IMG/VR virus record: IMGVR_UViG_3300032236_001129
Location: 36,207 to 100,206 of that record
Reading direction: 5' to 3' (one strand)
Length of the DNA: 64,000 nt
DNA from: a virus
Shown here: in pieces, positions 8,349 through 62,406 of the stretch
Layout: each line of letters starts with the position of its first letter
Numbering within the stretch: the stretch's first letter is position 1
Program-made: the position numbers and the translations under genes
Notes under the pieces: generated by a model
What the model was told of the DNA's origin: nothing
The model's input: only the letters and a program-made list of their open reading frames with translations
Database searches by the model: none

Positions 8349-8409
8349 TCAATCTCCTGGGCGTGTAGTGACAATAGCAGTACTATGCCGACAAAAATGC
8401 GATACGTCA

Positions 8410-8430
8410 TGTTAAACTATGATTAATCAT
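8410..8430 (+). promoter_or_regulatory. Putative promoter with 12-bp palindrome for the plus-strand cassette
   Basis: TG-T-TAAACT (8410-8418) fits an extended -10. It is directly followed by the perfect palindrome ATGATTAATCAT (8419-8430), immediately upstream of the AAGAGGAG ribosome site at 8431. The palindrome would lie at the transcription start, a good place for an operator. This is inferred only from position. Confidence 0.4.
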
Positions 8431-8444
8431 AAGAGGAGATTAAA

Positions 8445-10583
8445 ATAAGAAAACTACGTCTACTCGTAGAACTATTTCTTGCATCAATCCTTTACTTTTC
8501 TGTATCACAACTCGCAGCACACGCCGATGATTTAACACCTTCAGATCAGGTGGCAATTTCCCCTGCCTCTGACACATCTACAGCTACAGTATCCTTACCT
8601 GTTGCTCTTGCCTCTGCTATCTCTACAGTAGACGGCGCTACAGTTACTGTAAATGTTGCAATTCAAACAGCTAGTGATTCTTTAACTGCTGTTGTAGACA
8701 CCCAAGAAAAAATGCAGGTGGTGGAGTCTAGTACCGTAGCCGTTGCAGCTATTGATTCTGCCACGGTTGCTATCAATGATGCTCACGTAGCTATTCAAGC
8801 TGCTGAGTCAGCAACTGTTACAGCTGCGTTGGATCTGCAAGCTGTAGATTCCCAGACAGTTGTTGTTGCCATAGCAACTACTAACTTAGATAGTTCTACT
8901 GTAGTGCTTAACGTGGCCACTGCAGCTGTCGATTCCCAGACCCTTGTAGTCTCCCAAGATGCAGTTGCTTCTCAGAATGCCCAAGCTGCCGCCGATTCTT
9001 CTACCGTTACTGTGACCACAGGTGGGGTATCAGCTACGGTTTATAATGGAACAGGTAGATCACCGGCACTTCCTACAGATCAAACAACCCCTATTCTTAC
9101 AACTATAGTTCCACAGATCATTAACAATTGGGGTGGAGGTTCGGTACAAGGTGGCCCAGCTGATCGTGTGATCGTTAAATATGAAGGCACGATTACTGCC
9201 CCTGCTGATGCAGTGGCTGTTAAGTACGCTGTTTACTCTGATGATGGGGCTAAGCTGTATGTTGATGGTCAGCTAGCAATCAATAACTGGAGAGACCAAG
9301 GACCTACTTGGAGCCCATACAGTCCTGTGTATGATGTGACTACTAATAAGTCTCAAAATTTTGTGCTTTGGTACTATGAAAATGGTGGAGGTGCAGTTTG
9401 TACTCTTGGCTGGGCAATCTTTAGAGCTGATGGTACAGGATACTTTACAAGCCCTACTGCACCTAACTTTGGTACCACAACTACAACCAAAGATCAAGCA
9501 TTAGTAGCTGCAGCTCAAGCTGCGTTGGATACTCTTAATAATGATAGTGCTGTTTTAGTTACTCTTCAAGATGCAAAGACAGCTGCAGAAAATGTTGTAG
9601 CTGCGGATACTCAAACCAAAGCGGATGCTATCTCTCTATTAACACAGTTAACCGATACTACTACAGCATCTGTTGCCACAGCTGTAGATCTATCTAATCA
9701 AGCTGCTGCAAAAGCTAATGATGCTAAAGCAGCATTGGATACAGCAGTTACCACAGTTTCCAGCGTTGTTGCTCAATATATTGACGCTCAGCTTCAGTTG
9801 CAAGCTCAGAGAGATGCTGAAGCTGCCGCTGCCGCAGCTGCTGCAAGAGCTGCTGCAGTTGCTCCGGCTCCAGAACCTCAACCTGCTCCTCAACCTGAAC
9901 CAGATCCGCAACCTCAGCCCGATCCACAACCTCAACCGGATCCACAACCACAGCCAGATCCTCAGCCGCAACCAGATCCACAACCTGCGCCGCAACCAGA
10001 CCCAGGACCCGCACCTGCTCCTCAGCCAGAGCCTGCACCCGCTCCTGCGCCTGCTCCAGCGCCCGAACCAACTCCTGCACCTTCACCTGAACCACCTGTC
10101 GTTCCTGGTCTAGTTCCTAATAATCCAGACTCACTACCAGATAGTGTACCAAAGGAAGCGCCTAAAGAAGTTCTCGTGCCTCACGTACAAGTTGATAAAG
10201 CTGGTGTAGAAAATGGTGGCATTGAATTCTTTGGTACTAAAACACAGCCACAAGTAGTTGGAGAAGATGGAAAGCTTACCCCGCCTCCACCTCCTCCAGG
10301 TTCAGGGCTACCAATTCCTCCGGATGCGATAACCTTGAGCGATACATTTATCGGACAACCAGGCGGCACAACATTTAACGCACCTGACGTTGCCGTTCCC
10401 GTTATAGAAACTCCTGTTACTGGGGCTTTAGCGGCGGTACCTGGGGTACAGGCTCTCAATCATGCATTCGTTGCGATGGCTAACATCGGTAACGATATGT
10501 CCCCTATCACCCGTAAAAAAGCAAAGAAAATCTTGGTATTGACAACCGTCATTGCCGCCGTAAGAAGGAGATTTGGTAACTAA
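8445..10583 (+). CDS. Secreted PA14-domain, proline-rich surface protein; apparent ATA start
   Basis: The frame is open from a TAA at 8430-8432. AAGAGGAG (8431-8438) is followed after 6 nt by ATA at 8445, and no ATG, GTG or TTG lies before a textbook signal peptide (RKLRLLVELFLASILYFSVS, then QLAAHA before DD). GTG at 8550 would remove the signal and lacks a ribosome site. With ATA the product is 712 aa: signal peptide 1-27, Ser/Thr/Val heptad-like repeats 30-195, a PA14 domain about 198-335 (YNGTGRSP, then KYAVYSDDGAKLYVDGQLAI and DQGPTWSPY), coiled-coil Ala-rich segment 345-470, PQPDPQP repeats about 474-552, and a C-terminal KKAKKILVLTTVIAAVRRRF that may anchor in the membrane. PA14 domains bind carbohydrates. 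Surface display on the infected cell, or virion release with host wall, are both possible. Confidence 0.75.
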   Translation: MRKLRLLVELFLASILYFSVSQLAAHADDLTPSDQVAISPASDTSTATVSLPVALASAISTVDGATVTVNVAIQTASDSLTAVVDTQEKMQVVESSTVAVAAIDSATVAINDAHVAIQAAESATVTAALDLQAVDSQTVVVAIATTNLDSSTVVLNVATAAVDSQTLVVSQDAVASQNAQAAADSSTVTVTTGGVSATVYNGTGRSPALPTDQTTPILTTIVPQIINNWGGGSVQGGPADRVIVKYEGTITAPADAVAVKYAVYSDDGAKLYVDGQLAINNWRDQGPTWSPYSPVYDVTTNKSQNFVLWYYENGGGAVCTLGWAIFRADGTGYFTSPTAPNFGTTTTTKDQALVAAAQAALDTLNNDSAVLVTLQDAKTAAENVVAADTQTKADAISLLTQLTDTTTASVATAVDLSNQAAAKANDAKAALDTAVTTVSSVVAQYIDAQLQLQAQRDAEAAAAAAAARAAAVAPAPEPQPAPQPEPDPQPQPDPQPQPDPQPQPDPQPQPDPQPAPQPDPGPAPAPQPEPAPAPAPAPAPEPTPAPSPEPPVVPGLVPNNPDSLPDSVPKEAPKEVLVPHVQVDKAGVENGGIEFFGTKTQPQVVGEDGKLTPPPPPPGSGLPIPPDAITLSDTFIGQPGGTTFNAPDVAVPVIETPVTGALAAVPGVQALNHAFVAMANIGNDMSPITRKKAKKILVLTTVIAAVRRRFGN
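9868..10080 (+). repeat. Tandem PQPDPQP-coding repeat
   Basis: Imperfect 12-18 bp units encode alternating PQPDPQPQ and then APAPAPEP. The DNA repeats (cagccagatcctcagccg and variants) are degenerate at third positions, so selection is on the protein. The region is prone to length change by slippage. It forms a stiff stalk between the coiled-coil part and the C-terminal region of the surface protein. Confidence 0.8.
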
Positions 10584-10768
10584 TGAAGCAATTCTTTAAA
10601 GATATATCTTCAGATTTCTTCAGTGAGATCTGGACATTCGTAGGGCTATTCTCAGCATGGCTAGTACTAACTGGTTCTGCTAAGACCGTCATCGGTAAGG
10701 TAACCCTAGCCTCTTTTGTAGTGTGGATTCTTACCCTCCGTCTTCGTAACCCAAAGGATAAAGAATGA
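10583..10768 (+). CDS. Small two-helix membrane protein, 61 aa
   Basis: ATG at 10583 overlaps the stop of the surface-protein gene (TAATG). The product starts MKQFFKDISSDFFSEIWTFV, with hydrophobic GLFSAWLVLTGSAKTVIG and VTLASFVVWILTLRLRNPKD. Two membrane spans with a charged C-terminus fit a small class II-type holin or antiholin. Its position two genes upstream of the endolysin, in a short operon, supports a lysis role. No family is recognised with certainty. Confidence 0.65.
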   Translation: MKQFFKDISSDFFSEIWTFVGLFSAWLVLTGSAKTVIGKVTLASFVVWILTLRLRNPKDKE

Positions 10769-11139
10769 AAACAACAGGAAACATTCTTCTACGTATCGTT
10801 GCTGTGTTTGCAGCTAGCGGTCTAGGAGTTATCGGTGCTGGTTCTATCGCAGGAATCTCAGTACTAAAAGCCGTAACAGTAGCTGGTCTAACAGCGGTTG
10901 CTGCGGTAGTAGAAAAACTTGCTCGTGGCTTTATGAACGACGGTAAGCTTGACCTAGATGAAATTAACGCAGCATTTGCAGCAGTTGATGTTAACTCTAA
11001 GACAGCTGCTGACCTTCAAGTTGAAGCCAAGCAAAACGGTCAGGATATCTTAATCAAGGCTGATGGTGGAACAACTGTAGCGACTCCAGTTGCTGCAGCA
11101 GCACCAGTAGTAGACCAAAGCCACCCAGATTATAACTAA
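10765..11139 (+). CDS. Membrane protein, holin candidate, 124 aa
   Basis: The product starts MKTTGNILLRIVAVFAASGL, with GVIGAGSIAGISVLKAVTVA and GLTAVAAVVEKLARGFMNDG: two Gly/Ala-rich membrane helices followed by KLDLDEINAAFAAVD, an EF-hand-like acidic helix, and a flexible Ala/Val tail. The order NxLLRxxAVFAASGLGVIGAGS, then LARxFxxDGKLDxDEINAAF, is a pattern I associate with endolysin-adjacent membrane proteins of actinobacteriophages. It overlaps the previous gene by 4 bp and ends 10 bp before the endolysin. Holin function is inference. Confidence 0.7.
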   Translation: MKTTGNILLRIVAVFAASGLGVIGAGSIAGISVLKAVTVAGLTAVAAVVEKLARGFMNDGKLDLDEINAAFAAVDVNSKTAADLQVEAKQNGQDILIKADGGTTVATPVAAAAPVVDQSHPDYN

Positions 11140-11149
11140 GGAGTAAAAC

Positions 11150-11896
11150 ATGGCAGCAGAAAAAGGAACAGCAGCTCGTATGGTTGAAGTAGCTCTTGCA
11201 GAAGAAGGCTACGTAGAAGGTCCAAAGGACAATGAAACTAAGTACGGCGCATTTACAAAGGCTAACTTCTTGCCTTGGTGTGGCTCATTCGTTATGTGGT
11301 GTGCTAACCAAGCTGGCGTAAAGGTACCTAATACAGTATCTACAATGGCAGGTGCAGCAGCTTTCAAGAAGCTCGGTACTTGGACAGACGCAGCGGTAGC
11401 TCAGCCAGAACCAGGAGACATTGTTTACTTTGACTTCATGGCTGGCGGTGCTCCAATCGAGCACGTAGGCATTGTTGTTCGTGACAATGGCGATGGCACA
11501 ATCACCACTATCGAAGGAAATACTTCTGGAGATAAGAAGAAGTCTGGTTCACAGGCTAACGGTGGAGAAGCTGTTGTAAAGCTTCGTGCTTATAAGAAGA
11601 ACAAGAAGGCTCTCCCAATCTTCATTGAAGGTTTTGGTCGCCCCAACTATGTAGGTAATGACGTGCATGTGGATCCAGTCCCAGCAGTTAAGCCAGCATT
11701 TCCAGGACAAATCAAGCCAGGAGACAAAGGCGAGAACGTTAAGACAATCCAGCATGCACTTACTCTTGTAGAAGATGGTGACTATGGCCCTGCAACTAAG
11801 GCAGCAGTTATCAAGTTCCAGGATAACCATGCTAATCTAGATTCAAATGGAATTGTTGGCCCAAAGACTTGGGCAGCACTCATGGATCTACTTTAA
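11150..11896 (+). CDS. Endolysin: CHAP amidase/peptidase plus peptidoglycan-binding domain
   Basis: The ribosome site AAGGAGTAAAAC precedes ATG at 11150. The N-terminal catalytic domain (about 8-160) has the CHAP signature: nucleophile C44 in FLPWCGSFVMWCANQAG and catalytic histidine near residue 105 in GAPIEHVGIVVRDNGDG, followed by TTIEGNTSGD. Residues about 186-248 form a PG_binding_1 domain (KPGDKGENVKTIQHALTL, then DYGPATKAAVIKFQ and GIVGPKTWAALMDLL). It lacks a signal peptide, so it depends on a holin. It is the last gene of the plus-strand cassette and is followed by a strong terminator. It cleaves peptide or amide bonds in host peptidoglycan at the end of infection. Confidence 0.93.
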   Translation: MAAEKGTAARMVEVALAEEGYVEGPKDNETKYGAFTKANFLPWCGSFVMWCANQAGVKVPNTVSTMAGAAAFKKLGTWTDAAVAQPEPGDIVYFDFMAGGAPIEHVGIVVRDNGDGTITTIEGNTSGDKKKSGSQANGGEAVVKLRAYKKNKKALPIFIEGFGRPNYVGNDVHVDPVPAVKPAFPGQIKPGDKGENVKTIQHALTLVEDGDYGPATKAAVIKFQDNHANLDSNGIVGPKTWAALMDLL

Positions 11897-15826: not shown

Positions 15827-16142
15827 TTTTGCCTCCTTGTTCAATCCACTCATCTAAAGTTAGCCCCTGCTTCTTAAATTTACGTTCGGCTGCATTACGT
15901 TCTCTGTGGGATAAACCGCCAAAGATTCCATGTAGCTCGTTGTTGTTGATGGCTTCCTTAAGACATTCTTTACGTACAGGACACGGTGGTCTCCCATCCT
16001 TGCCCCAACAGATTGCCTTAGCCTTGTCAGCTATGGGCTTGTATAAAGCTTTGTCTCGGGGTGGGAAGAACATCTCTGTATCTTCTCCCTGACACTTAGC
16101 ATCATATCGCCAAGTCCACGCTGGGTCGTCGTCGTAACGCAC
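15801..16142 (-). CDS. whiB: WhiB-family regulator with atypical cysteine spacing, 113 aa
   Basis: The four cysteines are C17, C45, C54 and C60, in KAICWGKDGRPPCPVRKECL, so the canonical C-x2-C-x5-C is stretched to C-x8-C-x5-C. The beta-turn motif normally G(V/I)WGG reads GIFGG at 72-76, followed by the basic SHRERNAAERKFKKQG. WhiB proteins carry a 4Fe-4S cluster and regulate transcription through the principal sigma factor, and they are restricted to actinobacteria and their phages. The C-terminus overlaps the Cas4-like gene start. The loop insertion and W-to-F change set it apart from the second WhiB at 25904. Confidence 0.9.
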   Translation of the reverse strand: MRYDDDPAWTWRYDAKCQGEDTEMFFPPRDKALYKPIADKAKAICWGKDGRPPCPVRKECLKEAINNNELHGIFGGLSHRERNAAERKFKKQGLTLDEWIEQGGKNGKAGDGS

Positions 16143-25907: not shown

Positions 25908-26149
25908 CGTCTCGCCTTTCTGCGAATATTACGGCGCTCTTTAGGAGTGGTTCCACCCCATACGCCTTCCTTCTCGTTAATACTTAATGCATATGCTAGA
26001 CACTTGTCTTTAATCCAGCAATCGTTACAGACCTTCTTGGCCTGTGCTACATCTGATGGTTCGTACTCTTCTGGAAAGAAGATCTCCGTATCGTAATCAA
26101 CACAGAGCTGAGTACCATCAAATGGATTGGACGCCAGCGAAAGCAGCAT
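25904..26149 (-). CDS. whiB: WhiB-family transcription factor, canonical, 81 aa
   Basis: I start at ATG 26149; a TTG at 26158 is the alternative. Cysteines C16, C41, C44 and C50 follow the canonical C ... C-x2-C-x5-C pattern (KKVCNDCWIKDKCLAYALSI), with GVWGG at 62-66 and the basic tail RRNIRRKARR. This is a complete WhiB with all Fe-S ligands and the sigma-contact tryptophan. Phage WhiB proteins can compete with host WhiB proteins and block superinfection or alter septation. It overlaps the helicase gene end by about 32 bp. Confidence 0.94.
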   Translation of the reverse strand: MLLSLASNPFDGTQLCVDYDTEIFFPEEYEPSDVAQAKKVCNDCWIKDKCLAYALSINEKEGVWGGTTPKERRNIRRKARR

Positions 26150-50237: not shown

Positions 50238-51641
50238 TTAGTTAAGTGGGTAACGTATGATTACAATACCTGAACCACCAGTGTACCCTGCGGTTCCTCC
50301 ATTTTCACCGCCACCTCCGCCACCACCAGTATTGGCAGTTCCAGCAGATCCAGCCTGTCTTGAAGCAGATCCAGTACGGTTTGCTCCGTTACCCCCGCCA
50401 CCCATTCCACCAGGTCCAGATTGATAGTTATAGTCTTCGTCTCCAGCTCCACCACCACCAGCGTAATAGTTGTTCACACCGGTACTAGTTGGAATAGCAA
50501 AAGTAGGGATGTATGCGCCTATTCCACCAGCACCACCTGGTTTACCAACAGAAGAATCTCCTGCAACTCCAGCGCCACCAGCTCCTCCTCCACCACCTGA
50601 AACGTAGAGAACTGTTCCCCCACCTCCAGCATAACCTTGTCCATAAGTTCCAGCACCACCTAATGAGTTTCCAGCAGATTCGCGGAACCCACCGCCACCA
50701 CCAGAACCACCAACAAGACCACTACCATCTGCACCACCAGCGCCAACATAACTTCCACCGCCACCGCCACCTAAAGTTACAATTGGCCCAAACATAGATG
50801 GAGTACCGTTTGCTCCAGGTTGCCCACCACCTGAGGAACTACTTCCAGCACCACCACTTCCAATTATTACTGGAACAGTTGTTCCAGCAACTAGAGTTAG
50901 TTTACTTTCAAGACCGGCACCACCACCAGTAGCATCAACTGTACAGCGTAAACCACCAGCCCCGCCTCCAGCGTTAATTCTGGAACCGCCTCCACCACCT
51001 GCTATAACAAGGTAATCAAGATTAGAAATTTGTTGGGTTGTTGTAAGAGTGCTTGAAGAGGTAAAAGTATGATAGGCATATCCTCCGGAAACAGTAATTG
51101 TTCCCCCTGTTGCTTTAACCCCATTAGACACACCATACAATGTAAACGTAGATCCAGAAAGAAAGTTATATGGATTTTGTGCAGAAATAATAACTAAAGA
51201 AGTAATAGGTGTGTTATCAGACCATAATCCTGCACCTATTTCAAGACGTGTATCATTACCATTTTGTGGGCTTACCCCGTACGAAGAAAAATTTTTATAC
51301 TTTGTGCTTGATGAGTAATCAGAAATAGTTACTTCTGCTGTTGAAAAAGTATTTGTAGGCCCACCATTACCCAAAGAGTTATCAAATAAATTCACATAGC
51401 TATTAGTATAGCTTTGAGTAATATTTCCAGAGGCGTAGTATCCACGAAGGATTTTAGTAGACGCATTAGAAGAAGAATTATTTGGATAAAGGCGTACGTC
51501 ATAACCATACTGAGTGTTATCTGTTCTTACAGAACCAACAAGTTTTAATTCTGTATAGTGTTGTGGTATATTTGCAAAAGTTACAGTAGCAACCGTAGAG
51601 CTAACTGTTATAGTTTGAATAGGTATTAATGTATTAGCCAT
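50238..51641 (-). CDS. Two-domain adhesin with glycine-rich C-terminus, 467 aa (paralogue 1)
   Basis: Residues 1-175 are a jelly-roll-like domain: TVSSTVATVTFANIPQHYTE, then LKLVGSVRTDNTQYGYDVRL, ending FLSGSTFTLYGVSNGVKA. A linker GYAYHTFTSSSTLTTTQ leads to the glycine-rich part starting DYLVIAGGGGGSRINAGGGA and ending GGSGIVIIRYPLN. The poly-Gly tracts (GGGGGG, AGGGGT) with periodic hydrophobic and Ser/Thr positions resemble adhesins such as phage S16 gp38, whose glycine-rich motifs fold as polyglycine-II helices. Receptor binding is likely. It starts 9 bp from the end of the next upstream paralogue. Confidence 0.8.
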   Translation of the reverse strand: MANTLIPIQTITVSSTVATVTFANIPQHYTELKLVGSVRTDNTQYGYDVRLYPNNSSSNASTKILRGYYASGNITQSYTNSYVNLFDNSLGNGGPTNTFSTAEVTISDYSSSTKYKNFSSYGVSPQNGNDTRLEIGAGLWSDNTPITSLVIISAQNPYNFLSGSTFTLYGVSNGVKATGGTITVSGGYAYHTFTSSSTLTTTQQISNLDYLVIAGGGGGSRINAGGGAGGLRCTVDATGGGAGLESKLTLVAGTTVPVIIGSGGAGSSSSGGGQPGANGTPSMFGPIVTLGGGGGGSYVGAGGADGSGLVGGSGGGGGFRESAGNSLGGAGTYGQGYAGGGGTVLYVSGGGGGAGGAGVAGDSSVGKPGGAGGIGAYIPTFAIPTSTGVNNYYAGGGGAGDEDYNYQSGPGGMGGGGNGANRTGSASRQAGSAGTANTGGGGGGGENGGTAGYTGGSGIVIIRYPLN

Positions 51642-53077
51642 TAGACTGCATACCTCACAATTACTAGTCCAGATCCACCTTGTCCACCTTGTGCTGGATA
51701 TCCTGCGTAACCGCCGCCTCCACCGCCAGAGCCTGTGTTAACAGTTCCTGAGTTACCTCCAGAAACAGTTTTAGTACCGGCACCTCCACCACCAGAACCG
51801 CCTGAACCTTGTGTGCCATAACCTGTAGAGCCACCACCACCACCTGCGTAGTAGCCAGAAACTCCAGTACCAGTTATAGTTGATAAAGCAGATATTTGAA
51901 CTCCGTTACCGCCAGCACCTCCAACAGAGTTAGGTGAAGTTGCTGCAGCACTACCAGGGCTACCTGCTGAGCCAGCACCGCCACCACCACCACCTGCACC
52001 CCAATATAGAGATGCAACAGGTGTTACACCACCGCCAGCATATCCTTGTCCTGAAGTTGGGGAACCACCAGTTCCTGCGGCGTTAACACCATTACCGGCT
52101 GCACCGCCACCACCAGAACCTCCGCTACCTCCAGTTGCCCCACCACCTCCGTTAAGCTGTGAAGCTCCATAGCCTCCGCCAACAGATACGATTGATCCAA
52201 AAGAAGAATTTCCACCACTAGTTCCATTGTAACCTGGGCCAGGTCCTGGAACAGAAACGCTAACACCACCAGCACCAATTAATACTGGGTAAGAAGTTCC
52301 TGCAGTAAGAGATAGTGCAGACTCAACAGAGCCACCACCACCAGTTGCTGTAACTGTTGAGCGAAGACCACCAGCGCCACCTCCGCCCATACCATCGTAT
52401 GGTCCAGAAGCCCCGCCTCCGCCACCTGCAATAACTAGATAATCACAAGAAATTGCTTGACGAGCAATAAACTTTCCTGAAGTCTTAAATACATGGTACC
52501 AATATGTTCCGTTATTGGTTACAAAGTCACCACCCTCAGCCTTTGTAGTTTCTGCTGCCTTAATTCCATAAGCGGTTAATGAAGAACCTGAAAGAAAACT
52601 AGCACCAGGAACAGTAAGAGTAATGCTTGTTATTGGAGACGTATTGAACCATTGGCCTACTGAAAGCTGTACCGCACTATTTGGTGCAGAACTTCTAGAT
52701 ATTACAGTTTTATTAGTAGTAGCGTTTGAGTAGTTCATGAAATTAAGTATGTCTGTAGTAACAATTGATGTGGTGTTGTCACCTAAAAATATAGAAGAGG
52801 TGCTATATGCTCTAGAAGAACCGCCCGTACTAGATCCAATACCATACACACGTGTCCACGAATAATTACTTCCAGTATCCCCATTTACTGTAAAATAAGA
52901 GTTAACAGCAGTTGAGTTATTTCCTGAATTTAGTACTACAACAAGATCTGTATAAGTTGTGGGAATGTTAGATAAAGTTATAGAGCTTGCATTACTTGTA
53001 AGGGTAGTAACAGCAATAGGGGTATAAGTATTTGATTCCCCTTGAGGCCCACCAGAAGGTGTTGTTGTTATAGCCAT
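51641..53077 (-). CDS. Two-domain glycine-rich adhesin, 478 aa (paralogue 2)
   Basis: The N-terminal domain reads TTLTSNASSITLSNIPTTYT, then DLVVVLNSGNNSTAVNSYFT and VNGDTGSNYSWTRVYGIGSS, ending FLSGSSLTAYGIKAAETT. The linker GTYWYHVFKTSGKFIARQAI precedes DYLVIAGGGGGASGPYDGMG. The end is GGSGLVIVRYAV. Its glycine part has several motifs AGGGG followed by hydrophobic residues (GQGYAGGGVTPVASLYWGAG). Domain order and boundary sequences are the same as in the other three, so they arose by duplication and divergence. Fold and binding function are inferred. Confidence 0.8.
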   Translation of the reverse strand: MAITTTPSGGPQGESNTYTPIAVTTLTSNASSITLSNIPTTYTDLVVVLNSGNNSTAVNSYFTVNGDTGSNYSWTRVYGIGSSTGGSSRAYSTSSIFLGDNTTSIVTTDILNFMNYSNATTNKTVISRSSAPNSAVQLSVGQWFNTSPITSITLTVPGASFLSGSSLTAYGIKAAETTKAEGGDFVTNNGTYWYHVFKTSGKFIARQAISCDYLVIAGGGGGASGPYDGMGGGGAGGLRSTVTATGGGGSVESALSLTAGTSYPVLIGAGGVSVSVPGPGPGYNGTSGGNSSFGSIVSVGGGYGASQLNGGGGATGGSGGSGGGGAAGNGVNAAGTGGSPTSGQGYAGGGVTPVASLYWGAGGGGGGAGSAGSPGSAAATSPNSVGGAGGNGVQISALSTITGTGVSGYYAGGGGGSTGYGTQGSGGSGGGGAGTKTVSGGNSGTVNTGSGGGGGGYAGYPAQGGQGGSGLVIVRYAV

Positions 53078-53665
53078 TTACGCAGTCCTAATCCCATAAA
53101 GAGCAAAATGAGTGTAAGCAGAAAATGTACCATTTTCCGGATACAATGTAATACTATTAATTTTATCTGTGTTATTTCTCCAATTACAATTAAGAATTTT
53201 TAAATAAGAAGAGGAGTTAACATTTCTGTCTCCACCAGAAAAAGAGCGAACAGTCTTATTTTTTGTAGTAGAGTTTGCATCAGCAATTTCTATAATTGAT
53301 GCGCTTGTATAAGATGCTGTGTTTGCACCACCAGTACCCCACAACCCCCAAGTTGAGCTTCCACCACTAGAACCAAATGCTACACCAGCTCCATCACCGT
53401 AGAGCTGTCCCCATGAGTAATTAGAAGCAGAATCACCATTAAAACGAAGGTAAAAACTATCGTTATTAAAAGAGTGTAGTGTGGTTGCACGAATTTGAAG
53501 ATTTGAATAGGTATCTGGAATACCTGTAAAAGTCACTGAGCTTTGGGAACTAGTAAGGCTGATTGTTGCTAATGCAAACATTCCACCCTGGATTGTAGTT
53601 TGATCCCAAACTTTATTGGTTTTGGAGCCGTATACCCCAGCACCATTAAATCTTTTAATAGACAC
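53078..53665 (-). CDS. Single-domain relative of the adhesins, 195 aa
   Basis: The product starts MSIKRFNGAGVYGSKTNKVW, then MFALATISLTSSQSSVTFTG, IPDTYSNLQIRATTLHSFNN and FYLRFNGDSASNYSWGQLYG, ending NGTFSAYTHFALYGIRTA. It consists of only the jelly-roll-like domain of the neighbouring glycine-rich proteins (SVTFTGIPxTYSxLQIR, RFNGDSxxNYSWxxLYGxG, xxFxLYGI). A tail attachment or alternative binding role is possible. Confidence 0.75.
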   Translation of the reverse strand: MSIKRFNGAGVYGSKTNKVWDQTTIQGGMFALATISLTSSQSSVTFTGIPDTYSNLQIRATTLHSFNNDSFYLRFNGDSASNYSWGQLYGDGAGVAFGSSGGSSTWGLWGTGGANTASYTSASIIEIADANSTTKNKTVRSFSGGDRNVNSSSYLKILNCNWRNNTDKINSITLYPENGTFSAYTHFALYGIRTA

Positions 53666-53687
53666 GAATGACTCCCCTTTGGGAAAA

Positions 53688-53924
53688 TTAGAGAACTAGA
53701 ACTGAGGCTTCGTCAGCTGTGAGAGGCTCACCAGCGACTAACTTAGCTTTTGCAGAAACCTTAAGCGCTGCAATACGTGCTTCTTCTGCTTCACGTACTG
53801 CCTGTGCTTCAGCAGCAGCTGCGGCATCCTGATCACGCTGTGCAATTTCTTGTGCTGTTAGGGGAACAATGCGCTGTTCTCCTGTTGTGCAGTCAACGAT
53901 AATCTTTGTAGGTGTATCGGACAT
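53688..53924 (-). CDS. Tail-fibre-associated small protein, 78 aa
   Basis: The product starts MSDTPTKIIVDCTTGEQRIV, then PLTAQEIAQRDQDAAAAAEA, followed by a helix QAVREAEEARIAALKVSAKA and KLVAGEPLTADEASVLVL. D(C/V)xTGExxxxPLTxxExAQxxxxxxxAxxxAxxxxAxxxAxxxxxxKL is a widespread small protein next to phage fibre genes, often suggested to assist fibre attachment or folding. It overlaps the next gene by one base. Function is inferred from context. Confidence 0.7.
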   Translation of the reverse strand: MSDTPTKIIVDCTTGEQRIVPLTAQEIAQRDQDAAAAAEAQAVREAEEARIAALKVSAKAKLVAGEPLTADEASVLVL

Positions 53925-54295
53925 TATTCAGTTACTTCCTTCCATGACTTAGAGGTTTCATCCCATGTGTAGCGCTTTCCTTCTACAGTGGGCATAGGAG
54001 TTGGTGCATCCCATGTGTAGGTATCTTTATTAAGAGTCCATGATGGGAAAGGCTTTGGAGCAATAAATGCGTCTAGAGCCGCATCGTACTTAAACCCAAT
54101 ACCCGCATAGTTACCACGAAATGGGTTACCACCTAAACGGTGTTCTCCAGCAAATGTGTTATACGAGGTCTTCTTCCAAGTACCACCCAAACCGAGTTCA
54201 TCGGCTAGGAATGCTTGACCGTCTTCTACCTCATCAGCTACGACAAGTACACGAGTGACAATGTTGTCACTATCAATTTCGGCCCAATGTGCCAT
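53924..54295 (-). CDS. Fibre-associated protein, MAHWAEI family, 123 aa
   Basis: The product starts MAHWAEIDSDNIVTRVLVVA, then DEVEDGQAFLADELGLGGTW and KKTSYNTFAGEHRLGGNPFR, GNYAGIGFKYDAALDAFIAP and KPFPSWTLNKDTYTWDAPTP. (A/F)AxxDxxNxVxxVxVVxNxxxxxGxxFLxxxLGxxGxWxxTSYNTxxGxHxxGGxPxRxNYAxxGxxYD is a very common small phage protein found beside fibres, including cyanophages. Likely a tail or fibre accessory. A gap of 52 bp upstream has an A/T-rich stretch with the ribosome site only. Confidence 0.85.
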   Translation of the reverse strand: MAHWAEIDSDNIVTRVLVVADEVEDGQAFLADELGLGGTWKKTSYNTFAGEHRLGGNPFRGNYAGIGFKYDAALDAFIAPKPFPSWTLNKDTYTWDAPTPMPTVEGKRYTWDETSKSWKEVTE

Positions 54296-54347
54296 ATGTT
54301 TTTCTCCTTGCTTGATTAGATAATAATAACATACCTAGTGGTATGGC

Positions 54348-55781
54348 TTATGCCTTATAACGAATAATAACTACTCCAGAGCCGCCATTGGCGCCCTTAG
54401 TAACTGGTGGGCTAACTCCATAAGACCCGCCGCCTCCACCACCTGTAGAAGCGGTACCAGCAATACCAGCACCGTTACCTCCACCATAACCAGCACCACC
54501 ACCGCCGTAGCCACCTTGTGAAGAAGCAACGTTAGAGGCACCGCCTCCGCCACCTGCAAAGTAGTAAGTTCCGCTTACATTTTGGCCTAAGCCAGTAGCA
54601 GCTCCCCATACAGTCCAAGTAGCAAGTCCGACGCCACCATCTCCACCCTTAGTATCTGTAGTAACACGACTTTGTCCAACTCCGCCTGCCCCACCACCAC
54701 CAGAGCCGTTACAGTTTGAAACTTGTGGTCCAATTGAGCCAGAAGCATTTCCGTAACCAGTTAAAGTTCCGTAAGAAGTCTGTGTTGCAGCAGCACCGCC
54801 AACTGTTCCGCCGTAACCTCCTGACATACAGCATCCGCCACCAGAACCACCTGTGTATCCAACATAGCCAAAACCGTTGTTGTTAGAAACACCTACGTCA
54901 AATCCAGCACCACCACCTCCACCAAGTGCTGTTGCGGTATTAAAGACTGAGTTACTTCCGCTGTTACCTGCTGAACCGTTTTGAAAGTTAGTTCCTGCTC
55001 CTCCAGCACCTACAGTTACTGTATATGAAGTTGTAGCACTTAACGCTGGAATAGTTCCTGCAAGAACACCTCCAGCACCGCCACCACCAGGCATAGGACC
55101 AGCATATGCAGATCCTCCTGCGCCACCACCAGCGACTACAAGAACATCTACGTTAGTAAGGTTAGAAGTAGGTACAAAAGAACCTGAAGAGATGAAAGAG
55201 TGATAAGTGTATGTGCCATCAAAAGCAATATTTCCACCAGATGCTCTAACAGAGTTTCCATAGGTCTTTACAAGGTTTTTAATTCCATAAACAGTAAAGG
55301 ATGAGTTTTGAAGAATAGTGTTTCCTGTATTAGATAAAAATGTAATAGAGGTAATAGGCGCAGTAGTAGTTGAAAGTCCTGATACCAAAGCAACATATCC
55401 TGCTCCGTTATTAGTAACTACAGAATCACCGTAAGCACTCTTTTGACCATATCCAGAATAGTTAGGTATATAAATCTCACCGCCACCAAAGCTATTAGCA
55501 ACAGATGCTGTATCTGTGCACCAGATAAGCTCTTGAATTGTAGCGCTTACGTAACCGGTAGTACTAGATCCGTTTCCGTACATACCTTTTTGAGAGTATC
55601 CAGTAGTAACTCCGTTATATTGAACCTGAAGAGTATCAGCACCAGCTGCTCGTCCAGTACGTGCGGTTACTTTTACAATTAAATCTGTGTATCCTTGAGG
55701 GATATTAGAGATAGTAACTGATGAGGTTCCACCAGAAGGCACCGTATAGGTTGCCAATTTTGTCATTGTCTCATTAGCCAT
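54348..55781 (-). CDS. Two-domain glycine-rich adhesin, 477 aa (paralogue 3)
   Basis: The N-terminal domain reads YTVPSGGTSSVTISNIPQGY, then TDLIVKVTARTGRAAGADTL and VQYNGVTTGYSQKGMYGNGS, ending SFTVYGIKNLVKT. The linker DGTYTYHSFISSGSFVPTSN leads to VDVLVVAGGGAGGSAYAGPM. It has an unusual double cysteine (GSGGGCCMSGGYGGT) and another cysteine (VSNCNGSGGGG) in the glycine-rich part, and ends GGSGVVIIRYKA. Disulphide or metal bridging at the tip is conceivable. Otherwise the organisation equals the other adhesins. Confidence 0.8.
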   Translation of the reverse strand: MANETMTKLATYTVPSGGTSSVTISNIPQGYTDLIVKVTARTGRAAGADTLQVQYNGVTTGYSQKGMYGNGSSTTGYVSATIQELIWCTDTASVANSFGGGEIYIPNYSGYGQKSAYGDSVVTNNGAGYVALVSGLSTTTAPITSITFLSNTGNTILQNSSFTVYGIKNLVKTYGNSVRASGGNIAFDGTYTYHSFISSGSFVPTSNLTNVDVLVVAGGGAGGSAYAGPMPGGGGAGGVLAGTIPALSATTSYTVTVGAGGAGTNFQNGSAGNSGSNSVFNTATALGGGGGAGFDVGVSNNNGFGYVGYTGGSGGGCCMSGGYGGTVGGAAATQTSYGTLTGYGNASGSIGPQVSNCNGSGGGGAGGVGQSRVTTDTKGGDGGVGLATWTVWGAATGLGQNVSGTYYFAGGGGGASNVASSQGGYGGGGAGYGGGNGAGIAGTASTGGGGGGSYGVSPPVTKGANGGSGVVIIRYKA

Positions 55782-57223
55782 TAGCGTGCGTACCTCACAA
55801 TCACAAGTCCAGATCCGCCCATCATTCCTCGGTTACCAGTATTACCACCATTAGTAGAGTATAGACCACCATCTACACCACCTCCACCACCACCGCCAGT
55901 GTTCATAGTTCCTGCATAAGGCGCAGATGAAACTCCTCCAGTAAGTACAGTTCCTCCACGTCCTCCGCCACCAAGGCCGCCAGCAGCAGTTGTAGTATCA
56001 CGAGAACCACCACCGCCACCTGCATAATAATAATGTCCACTAGAAAGTTGTCCAGTACCTGTAGCAGCTCCAATAACATCTAGTGCTGCAATAGTTGTAT
56101 AGGTTAGCCCTACACCACCAACACCACCAGCTGATTCAGTTGCAGAGCCACCAGCACCACCAGCGCCACCACCACCTGAAGAAGAGTAAGGTGACCCAGT
56201 ACCAGTTCTGGCACTGTTACCGCCAGCGTTTCCGTATCCTGTTGCTCCACCAGACGTTCCTTGGTTTGCTGCGCCTCCAACGTTTCCAGTGTTGTATCCA
56301 GCACCGCCACCAGAACCTCCGGAACTACCTGTCCCATTGTGTGACCCGTAACCTCCGCCATTAGCAGTGATTGTGTCAAATACAGAGTTACTTCCATTAA
56401 TACCAGAACTACCATCAGAATAACCACCAGGACCACCAGCACCTACAGTTACTGTGTACGTTGTAAATGCAGAAAGTGAGCGTCCGCTTTGCCAGCAAAG
56501 ACCACCAGCTCCACCACCACCACCAGCTGCGGAAGCACCTCCACCGCCACCTCCGATTACAAGTACATCCGCAGTAATTGCTCTGTTAGTTGTAAGAGTT
56601 CCGGTACCGTTAAATACGTGATAAACATAGCTAGCGTCATATGAAACAAATGTTCCCCCAGATGCCGCAGTATTTTTTGCGTTAACTGAACCAATACCAT
56701 AAAGAGAAAATGTAGTTCCTACACCAAAGTTAATAGACCCACTTGTTGTGGTCACTGTAACAGAAGTAATTGGGGCAGTAGAGGAGCCACCTGTACCTCT
56801 CCATAATCCAGCACAAAGGTTTGCACCTGGAAGGTTAGTAGAGTAGCTGTCATTAGTATTTGAACGAGCTAACACAGTTTTATACAAAGCACTGCTGCTA
56901 TAACTCATGATGTTTACTACAGCGTGATTTGCACCAAAAGTTGTTCCCCAAGAAGCGTCTGTGTATCCAATTGCAAGGTAAGAAAAATTACTACCACGTT
57001 CACCAATTGGAGTAGAAGTACTGCTAGTAGCAAGGTTTGTCCAAGAATAATTAGTTCCTGTATCACCATTAAAACGAAGAGCTGGAGTCCAGTTTGCTGT
57101 TGCAACAGCGCCATGCATTACTATTTGCAAATCAGTATATGACTGATCAATATTGCTAAATGTAACGCTTGTAGTTGTTGCGTTAGTTACAGTAAGTGTT
57201 TGTAGGGGTACAAGTGTGGCCAT
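55781..57223 (-). CDS. Two-domain glycine-rich adhesin, 480 aa (paralogue 4)
   Basis: The N-terminal domain reads TLTVTNATTTSVTFSNIDQS, then YTDLQIVMHGAVATANWTPA and LRFNGDTGTNYSWTNLATSS, ending TTFSLYGIGSVNAKN. The linker ASYVYHVFNGTGTLTTNRAI precedes DVLVIGGGGGGASAAGGGGG. The end is GGSGLVIVRYAR. It is the longest of the four and the first in transcription order after the single-domain relative at 57223. Stop and start are shared with both neighbours (TAATGG), so the paralogues are made together. Confidence 0.8.
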   Translation of the reverse strand: MATLVPLQTLTVTNATTTSVTFSNIDQSYTDLQIVMHGAVATANWTPALRFNGDTGTNYSWTNLATSSTSTPIGERGSNFSYLAIGYTDASWGTTFGANHAVVNIMSYSSSALYKTVLARSNTNDSYSTNLPGANLCAGLWRGTGGSSTAPITSVTVTTTSGSINFGVGTTFSLYGIGSVNAKNTAASGGTFVSYDASYVYHVFNGTGTLTTNRAITADVLVIGGGGGGASAAGGGGGAGGLCWQSGRSLSAFTTYTVTVGAGGPGGYSDGSSGINGSNSVFDTITANGGGYGSHNGTGSSGGSGGGAGYNTGNVGGAANQGTSGGATGYGNAGGNSARTGTGSPYSSSGGGGAGGAGGSATESAGGVGGVGLTYTTIAALDVIGAATGTGQLSSGHYYYAGGGGGSRDTTTAAGGLGGGGRGGTVLTGGVSSAPYAGTMNTGGGGGGGVDGGLYSTNGGNTGNRGMMGGSGLVIVRYAR

Positions 57224-61303: not shown

Positions 61304-62406
61304 TATTGTGGTCCTAGTGGGATACTAACTTGTGCTCGGGTGAATACCTTACCTGTAAGGTAGGTCTTTGTTTTGCCACTGCTATCTGTCATTTGCAGAT
61401 CGTAGTATGAAACATTTGGAAGGTCTCTTGTGATAGACCCAATAAGGGCTAGGTTTAGAGTATCCAAAGTACCGGCTGGCAAAGATGAGTTGGTATCTGA
61501 AGCTTCCTTTGTAATAGTAAAGGTAGCGATGATTGCAGGGCCTACACGTCCACCAGGAATGTCTGGATAGAGGCGTACCTGTGCAAGAGGTGAGAAGTCA
61601 GCGAGATCCATAGAGAAGCGTACCTTCTCAGCGAAGTCATCTCCAGCATAGAGAGATAGGTCTCGTGTTGGTACTGGAGAAGCTGGGGTAATATCTCCGT
61701 AGTTTGGAATAGGTAGGATAACTCGCTGTGGCAATGAACCGTCATCCACTTCTTGTGGGCGGTAGATTGGGATATAGCGGTTTGTAAGGCGGCTGACACG
61801 ACGTAGTGTGTAGACCTCCATGCGGTAAAGTCCCACACCCAACATTGAACATAGTTCACGGTATTGAGCTTGACGGGTCTGTACCATCTCCATAAGCTGG
61901 CGATAGCGCTCTGAACGTGGGATAGAGACGCCATCTGGTGAGATGATGTCGATATCGAATGCAGAGTCTGTAGCCAAGGTATAGAGGGCTAGGGTTGAAG
62001 CAAGAATGATAAGCGGATACTCATCAACCAATGGGAGAGTATTCATATTTACAGAGCTGCCGTTTACATCTGTAGTGGTACGAGCATGCTCTGCAAAGGC
62101 AGTATTAATATAATAGTTAATGTCGCTATCTGTAAAGTAGCGGTAGAAGGTTCCGGAAGCTGTGATAACGGTTCCGGTAGCTGGAGGGGTATCAAAGATA
62201 ATAGATCCAAAGCCCTCTTCAACTGTAATGTGGTTAGAGACGTTTACCCCGTCCACTGTCACCAAAAGGGTTGAGCCCTGTACTGGAGCCTCAGTCATGT
62301 GGAAGATATTAGCTATTCCATCGCCTGTGAAAGACTCTACAAAGGACCGACCCATATCGCCAATTTCAGCACGAAGTCTAATGCCCAGTGAGGCTACTGT
62401 TGCCAT
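61303..62406 (-). CDS. Structural protein, head or neck candidate, 367 aa
   Basis: The product starts MATVASLGIRLRAEIGDMGR, then has EAPVQGSTLLVTVDGVNVSN, TASGTFYRYFTDSDINYYIN and TLPLVDEYPLIILASTLALY. A helical segment SRLTNRYIPIYRPQEVDDG and a beta-rich end (VRLYPDIPGGRVGPAIIATF, NVSYYDLQMTDSSGKTKTYL) follow. FT-D-x-(D/E)-(I/L)-x-x-Y-I-x-x-A-x-x-E-H resembles head-completion adaptors encoded after capsid genes. It is preceded by a hairpin at 62480-62515. Exact role not determined. Confidence 0.65.
   Translation of the reverse strand: MATVASLGIRLRAEIGDMGRSFVESFTGDGIANIFHMTEAPVQGSTLLVTVDGVNVSNHITVEEGFGSIIFDTPPATGTVITASGTFYRYFTDSDINYYINTAFAEHARTTTDVNGSSVNMNTLPLVDEYPLIILASTLALYTLATDSAFDIDIISPDGVSIPRSERYRQLMEMVQTRQAQYRELCSMLGVGLYRMEVYTLRRVSRLTNRYIPIYRPQEVDDGSLPQRVILPIPNYGDITPASPVPTRDLSLYAGDDFAEKVRFSMDLADFSPLAQVRLYPDIPGGRVGPAIIATFTITKEASDTNSSLPAGTLDTLNLALIGSITRDLPNVSYYDLQMTDSSGKTKTYLTGKVFTRAQVSIPLGPQ

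Follow-up and report, generated by a model that had tools for sequence, protein, structure and literature searches.

At which codon does a large exported protein begin when its reading frame holds no ATG, GTG or TTG ahead of the signal peptide, and why would a phage keep such a start? The question is raised by a 64,000-nucleotide stretch of viral DNA (hereafter the window), which belongs to a virus record of 100,206 bases. An earlier note on this DNA had described an in-frame TAA, a Shine-Dalgarno (SD) sequence, a spacer of 6 nt, an ATA codon, a signal peptide running to AAHA before DD and GTG 8550 as the next possible start, and we have confirmed this layout position by position. The note left two alternatives, a real ATA start that keeps expression low or an ATG that had been mutated or misread, which are weighed here against relatives of the gene in other phages.

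The start site of the surface protein gene

The elements of the start region are the following:

8384-8420, + strand: promoter-like block, TATGCCGACAAAAAT...ATGTTAAACTAT, conserved in L001, L005 and L016, which are the nearest ATA relatives
8430-8432, + strand: in-frame TAA stop upstream of the start, from reading the frame
8431-8438, + strand: SD AAGAGGAG, 6 nt before the start, anti-SD duplex of -9.4 kcal/mol
8445-8447, + strand: ATA start codon
8445-8525, + strand: Sec-type signal peptide, read from the sequence, with the n-region RKLR, a hydrophobic core and the cleavage site AAHA

The spacer between the SD and ATA is ATTAAA (8439-8444), and the single ATT within it, at 8439, abuts the SD directly. 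The N-terminus of the protein reads IRKLRLLVELFLASILYFSVSQLAAHA, followed by cleavage and then DD. When the window was compared with L001 over codons 2-32, the differences by codon position were 3/1/8 and dN/dS was 0.06/0.40, and because of this substitution pattern the signal-peptide region is judged to evolve as coding sequence. Furthermore, ATA followed by the signal peptide was seen again in independent contigs. ATA 8445 is well supported as the genuine start of the exported surface protein gene by the position of the SD, the in-frame TAA and this recurrence.

It is very improbable that ATA is an internal isoleucine codon of a protein begun further upstream by recoding, frameshifting or readthrough. 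ATA, ATT and ATC do all encode isoleucine, but the TAA of the window lies 5 codons upstream of ATA, a stop stands directly before the codon in L142, L152 and L002, and other relatives have TTG, GTG, CTG or ATG at this site. The remaining two frames near the SD contain no ATG, GTG or TTG and are closed at once, so that no frameshifted start is available. A start at GTG 8550-8552 (codon 36), with a cytoplasmic product, has next to no credibility: this is the first in-frame ATG, GTG or TTG after 8445 and the one reported by a mechanical ORF finder, but it lacks an SD, L005 and L054 have GTC and GTA, respectively, in its place, and conservation contradicts it, signal-peptide-like N-termini being found in 71 of 73 relatives. 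As it also lies behind the cleavage site, the note rightly pointed out that annotating the start at 8550 would conceal the export signal, and gene finders restricted to ATG, GTG and TTG remove that signal from this surface protein.

The block at 8384-8420 does not match the sigma-70 consensus and is a promoter only putatively. An upstream mini-ORF (ATGCCGACAAAA...) was considered and rejected, having no SD and a variable middle, and is read as promoter-like block. Many members of the gene family have a near-consensus -10 element 20-50 nt upstream, which indicates that their leaders are short. Of 62 leaders, 21 fold better than 95% of shuffles. A short hairpin at the mRNA 5' end, directly before the SD, was noticed in L011, L012, L017, L021, L057, L061, L130, L142, L187, L201 and others, its sequence differing from lineage to lineage.

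Start codons across the gene family

Relatives were sought with the protein, with its conserved C-terminus and with the neighbouring endolysin, and were found at more than 100 loci in viral contigs and at two in Actinobacteria MAGs. In a collection of isolated phages no relative was found by protein and a single short DNA match in the PA14 region was obtained; a literature search yielded nothing on this gene family. The members share the signal peptide, a variable exposed part (PA14, fibronectin III or SUEL-lectin-like) and usually a Pro- or Ala-rich stretch, and in most of them the C-terminus is conserved and ends in a short hydrophobic helix and arginines. Recombination between the N- and C-termini of members is likely.

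Family starts were assigned by SD spacing together with alignment of the signal peptides. The 73 start sites, which include the near-duplicates L009/L025/L041, L163/L170 and L185/L191, comprise TTG 43, ATA 10, ATG 9, ATT 5, GTG 4, CTG 1 and ATC 1, so that 17 of the 73 use a codon other than ATG, GTG or TTG. Among 1169 homologous starts that belong to other genes of these loci, the codons were ATG 1071, GTG 80 and TTG 18; this background leans to ATG, its references having been picked with ATG plus an SD, and the gap to the family is very large. Nearly every near-cognate reading in the background is accounted for by a neighbouring canonical codon. Automatic start calling based on the SD produced many false near-cognate calls next to ATG, and the homology-based background was used instead. 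Against it, the family is enriched in non-canonical codons (Fisher p 2e-19, with 3 background cases taken and relatedness ignored) and avoids ATG (odds ratio 0.013). Judged by these counts, relatives in dozens of other phages shun the normal start codon. The weakness of the start is not absolute, since 9 of the 73 relatives have ATG.

The codons ATA, ATT and ATC are carried by about ten different leaders scattered over the C-terminal tree, where they need about 12 changes, at least 5 of which are forced by starred branches. Within one leader type, L142 and L187 have ATA and L152 has ATT. A scan for the stem pattern described below, blind to the start codon, added L307 (ATA), L380 (ATA) and L335 (ATC). 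A sequencing error or a single ATG to ATA mutation, the second alternative of the note, has practically no chance of being the explanation: ATA is indeed one base from ATG, but ATA stands at this place in L001, L005 and L016 too, as well as behind unrelated leaders of other samples, and the third base is T or C elsewhere. The comparison of homologous start codons that the note had proposed thus refutes an error as a general explanation, and the weak start appears as a family-wide pattern from which an isolated error is excluded. The first alternative, a real ATA for low expression, gains support from the recurrent ATA, ATT and ATC, with TTG commonest and ATG rare. The note had overlooked this property of the whole family, as well as the covarying hairpin, the overlap with a holin-like gene and the non-canonical infC starts of the host that are described below.

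The SDs are strong in every start class (median about -9 kcal/mol), and when a stronger SD was looked for as a compensation in AUH members, no difference in strength was seen among the start classes. The start codon is followed by A in 68 of 74 members, compared with 668 of 1579 in the background. In 29 of 74 members the start codon immediately follows a stop codon, as against 8.7% of background ATG starts.

Two other genes of these contigs have apparent near-cognate starts. In L022:780, a terminase large subunit, AAAGGTG is followed by ATAGACATT with an apparent ATA start and no canonical start nearby, and its relatives have GTG, ATG or TTG. A DUF1003 gene has an apparent ATT start in three contigs (L160, L212 and L007).

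A covarying hairpin inside the reading frame

Directly inside the reading frame of the window lies an inverted repeat:

8454-8469, + strand: RNA stem-loop CTACG-TCTACT-CGTAG, nucleotides 10-25 of the ORF, with a 5-bp stem, supported by compensatory changes in relatives

The pattern CTACG-N6-CGTAG has this single site in the 64 kb, and the stem is the predicted fold of the start region. We examined it in 41 distinct members, selected by protein alone for Arg at residue 5. Nucleotides 10-14 of the ORF pair with nucleotides 21-25 in a complete 5-bp stem in 33 of the 41, whereas permutation of synonymous codons within columns gave 20.7 +/- 1.6 full stems (maximum 27 in 2000) and sliding of the partner along the sequence left 0-1. 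Cells in which both sides had changed numbered 13, compared with 3.0 +/- 1.4 in shuffles, relatedness not being fully removed from this count. The compensatory pairs are CTGCG/CGCAG, CTACG/CGTAG, CAGCG/CGCTG (L054), TTGCG/CGCAA (L090 and L155) and CCGCG/TGCGG (L192). In complete stems, Val (GTA) at residue 8 goes with a CTA codon for Leu-4, and Ala at residue 8 with CTG or TTG; these stems hold G-U pairs but no A-C pairs. All ten ATA, ATT or ATC members with Arg at residue 5 carry the stem. The loop is variable except for an A at nucleotide 18, an A that is also in line with a general tendency of codons in this region to end in A.

This covariation, which exceeds both the shuffled and the slid controls, points to a structured RNA element. 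A full stem is absent from 8 of the 41, and RNAalifold gave a consensus structure on the 33 members with the full stem and none on all 41. No Rfam family matches the hairpin. The stem is missing from the TRK type and from the L142/L148/L152/L187 type, which often have another hairpin between promoter and SD.

The surface protein and the adjoining lysis cassette

The product and its downstream neighbours are laid out as follows:

8445-10583, + strand: exported surface protein of 712 aa, with a helical stalk, PA14, a second helical stalk, a Pro-rich linker and a conserved C-terminus
9006-9488, + strand: PA14 beta-sandwich, residues 188-348 (Pfam PA14, E 2.7e-7; Foldseek to PA14 sugar-binding domains)
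10083-10580, + strand: conserved C-terminal region, the family marker, with a short hydrophobic helix at the end flanked by KK and RRR
10583-10768, + strand: holin-like protein of 61 aa with two TM segments, its ATG overlapping the TAA of the surface gene (TAATG)
10765-11139, + strand: second small membrane protein in a holin-like position, overlapping the previous gene by 4 nt
11150-11896, + strand: endolysin with CHAP and a peptidoglycan-binding domain

The PA14 assignment reaches 30.9 bits in Pfam, above the curated cut-off of 24, and Foldseek matched PA14 sugar-binding domains at an E of about 1e-6, as well as PA14 proteins of uncultured phages. The predicted model places PA14 between two long helices; the Pro-rich linker that follows is disordered, and a helix lies at the C-terminus. 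The mean pLDDT of the model is 70.6, and the linker and most of the C-terminus are under 50. A sortase LPXTG-like motif is not conserved, TPVTG of the window being TPIEG, VPLEG or TPLPA in relatives. Because of this variation, and because TPVTG sits far from the C-terminal helix, the protein is not assigned to the sortase-anchored class. We infer that it is lectin-like and stalked and sits on the infected cell's envelope. Elsewhere in the window, four similar Gly-rich proteins of 467-480 aa are encoded among tail genes (50238-57223, - strand).

The 61-aa holin-like protein has no Pfam or PHROG name. The SD of its gene sits within the C-terminal Arg codons of the surface protein gene, and at 61 of 70 loci the stop of the surface gene overlaps the next gene, by 1 nt (TAATG) in 36 and by 4 nt (such as ATGA) in 25. 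From this overlap and the position of the SD, the holin-like gene is probably translated in coupling with the surface gene.

The likely host and its IF3

WhiB genes are present in 12 of 18 phage records, the phage of the window having two of them. These WhiB-like genes lie on the - strand at 15891-16112 and 25928-26110 (G000:C1:52097-52318 and 62134-62316). Because of the WhiB genes and the matches in MAGs, freshwater actinobacteria are taken as the likely hosts. In the order of the MAG holding L196, which is the likely host order, infC starts with ATC in 21 and with GTC in 4 of 26 readable genes; the last of the 26, L272, is printed GTT with ATC adjoining. Most of these starts are preceded by AAGGAG or AGGAG. 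The infC genes of the likely host order (L242 and L245-L274) have an ATC start, with GTC in some species.

In Streptomyces, where infC starts at ATC, IF3 represses non-canonical starts including the GTC of sigR (PMC5472188), and the exclusion by IF3 of weak third-base pairs between the start codon and the initiator anticodon has been reported in vitro (PMC10158994). As the gene for IF3 has such an ATC or GTC start in the likely host order, starts that IF3 can repress are probably in use there too. Two phage-borne factors were considered and discarded: an initiator tRNA with another anticodon (the 100-kb record carries only tRNA-Asn) and a phage-encoded IF3 (there is no infC on 11 phage records).

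A proposed mechanism for the weak start

We consider it probable that the strong SD, a weak and IF3-sensitive start and the hairpin inside the ORF together throttle the stalked PA14 surface protein and may throttle the coupled lysis cassette as well. The family keeps its start weak (UUG, AUA, AUU, AUC and CUG over AUG) and its SD strong, and the consistent pairing of the two argues for selection on low or conditional initiation and not for decay. The SD would place the initiator tRNA on a codon that IF3 discriminates against, and initiation would be slow. With the start codon in the P site, the hairpin (+10 to +25) would come close to the point where mRNA enters the 30S subunit, and would belong to the same initiation region. 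The arrangement would probably serve to throttle a large Sec substrate and, via the TAATG overlap, the holin-like gene that heads the lysis cassette. Our hypothesis is that the stem either helps initiation or holds it back, and that the pace of the lysis genes is set by the weak start. Because most members use TTG, which IF3 tolerates better, the evidence favours plain throttling over a dedicated IF3 sensor, and the property shared by the family may be merely lower initiation.

A more specific version, possible though tentative, is that the near-cognate start and the covarying stem-loop from +10 form a joint device for the start rate, which would hold or admit the 30S complex in dependence on IF3, with the TAATG overlap fixing the expression or timing of the adjoining lysis genes. 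Rather unlikely is a translational operator, in which a phage or host protein would bind the stem-loop (+10 to +25) and prevent initiation up to a set time, a block made effective by the weak start. The fixed register to the start codon, the compensatory changes, the acceptance of G-U and not A-C in complete stems and the stem of all ten AUH members with Arg at residue 5 would fit an operator; on the other side, no binding protein is known, the loop varies save for its A, and TRK-type relatives do without the stem.

The wide spread of codons (TTG, ATA, ATT, ATC, CTG, GTG and ATG) could also reflect relaxed constraint, small amounts of protein being needed, near-cognate starts being tolerated and the codon drifting with no regulation. 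We regard this as improbable: SD, A at +4 and stem are kept while ATG is avoided, and drift should also weaken the SDs and often return to ATG, as selection favours AUG (PMC5622118). It is equally doubtful that the inverted repeat is a DNA operator instead of an RNA hairpin: compensatory changes would also keep a palindrome in DNA, but the half-site changes in at least 5 ways at fixed spacing, and where a complete stem departs from Watson-Crick pairing it does so by G-T, on the sense strand alone.

Comparison with known systems

To the best of our knowledge, AUA, AUU and AUC starts are known from very few genes, and here they recur many times in one freshwater phage gene family. The family thereby presents, within a single context, a naturally occurring range of start codons, in which IF3 discrimination in actinobacterial phages is directly testable. 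The gene of the window resembles infC and sigR in its non-canonical start, its strong SD at proper spacing and the infC of its inferred host. In infC (ATT in E. coli, ATC in Streptomyces) an AUH start is likewise joined to a strong SD, and IF3 represses such starts (PMC5472188). However, infC is autoregulated by its own product, whereas the phage gene encodes a surface protein and is not accompanied by infC on those 11 phage records. The GTC-started, IF3-repressed sigR of Streptomyces is also actinobacterial and has a non-canonical start with an extensive SD (PMC5472188). It is a single gene with a single codon, in contrast to the seven near-cognate codons and the covarying stem-loop of the phage family. 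The PA14 sugar-binding fold is common to the protein of the window and to adhesins such as the Marinomonas RTX adhesin and the yeast flocculins, but the former is phage-encoded, carried on a long helical stalk and placed beside a lysis cassette. Finally, the MS2 replicase hairpin is a phage translational operator and, like the element described here, a small stem-loop in the initiation region, although the stem of the phage family comes after the start codon (+10 to +25) and would be an operator only putatively.
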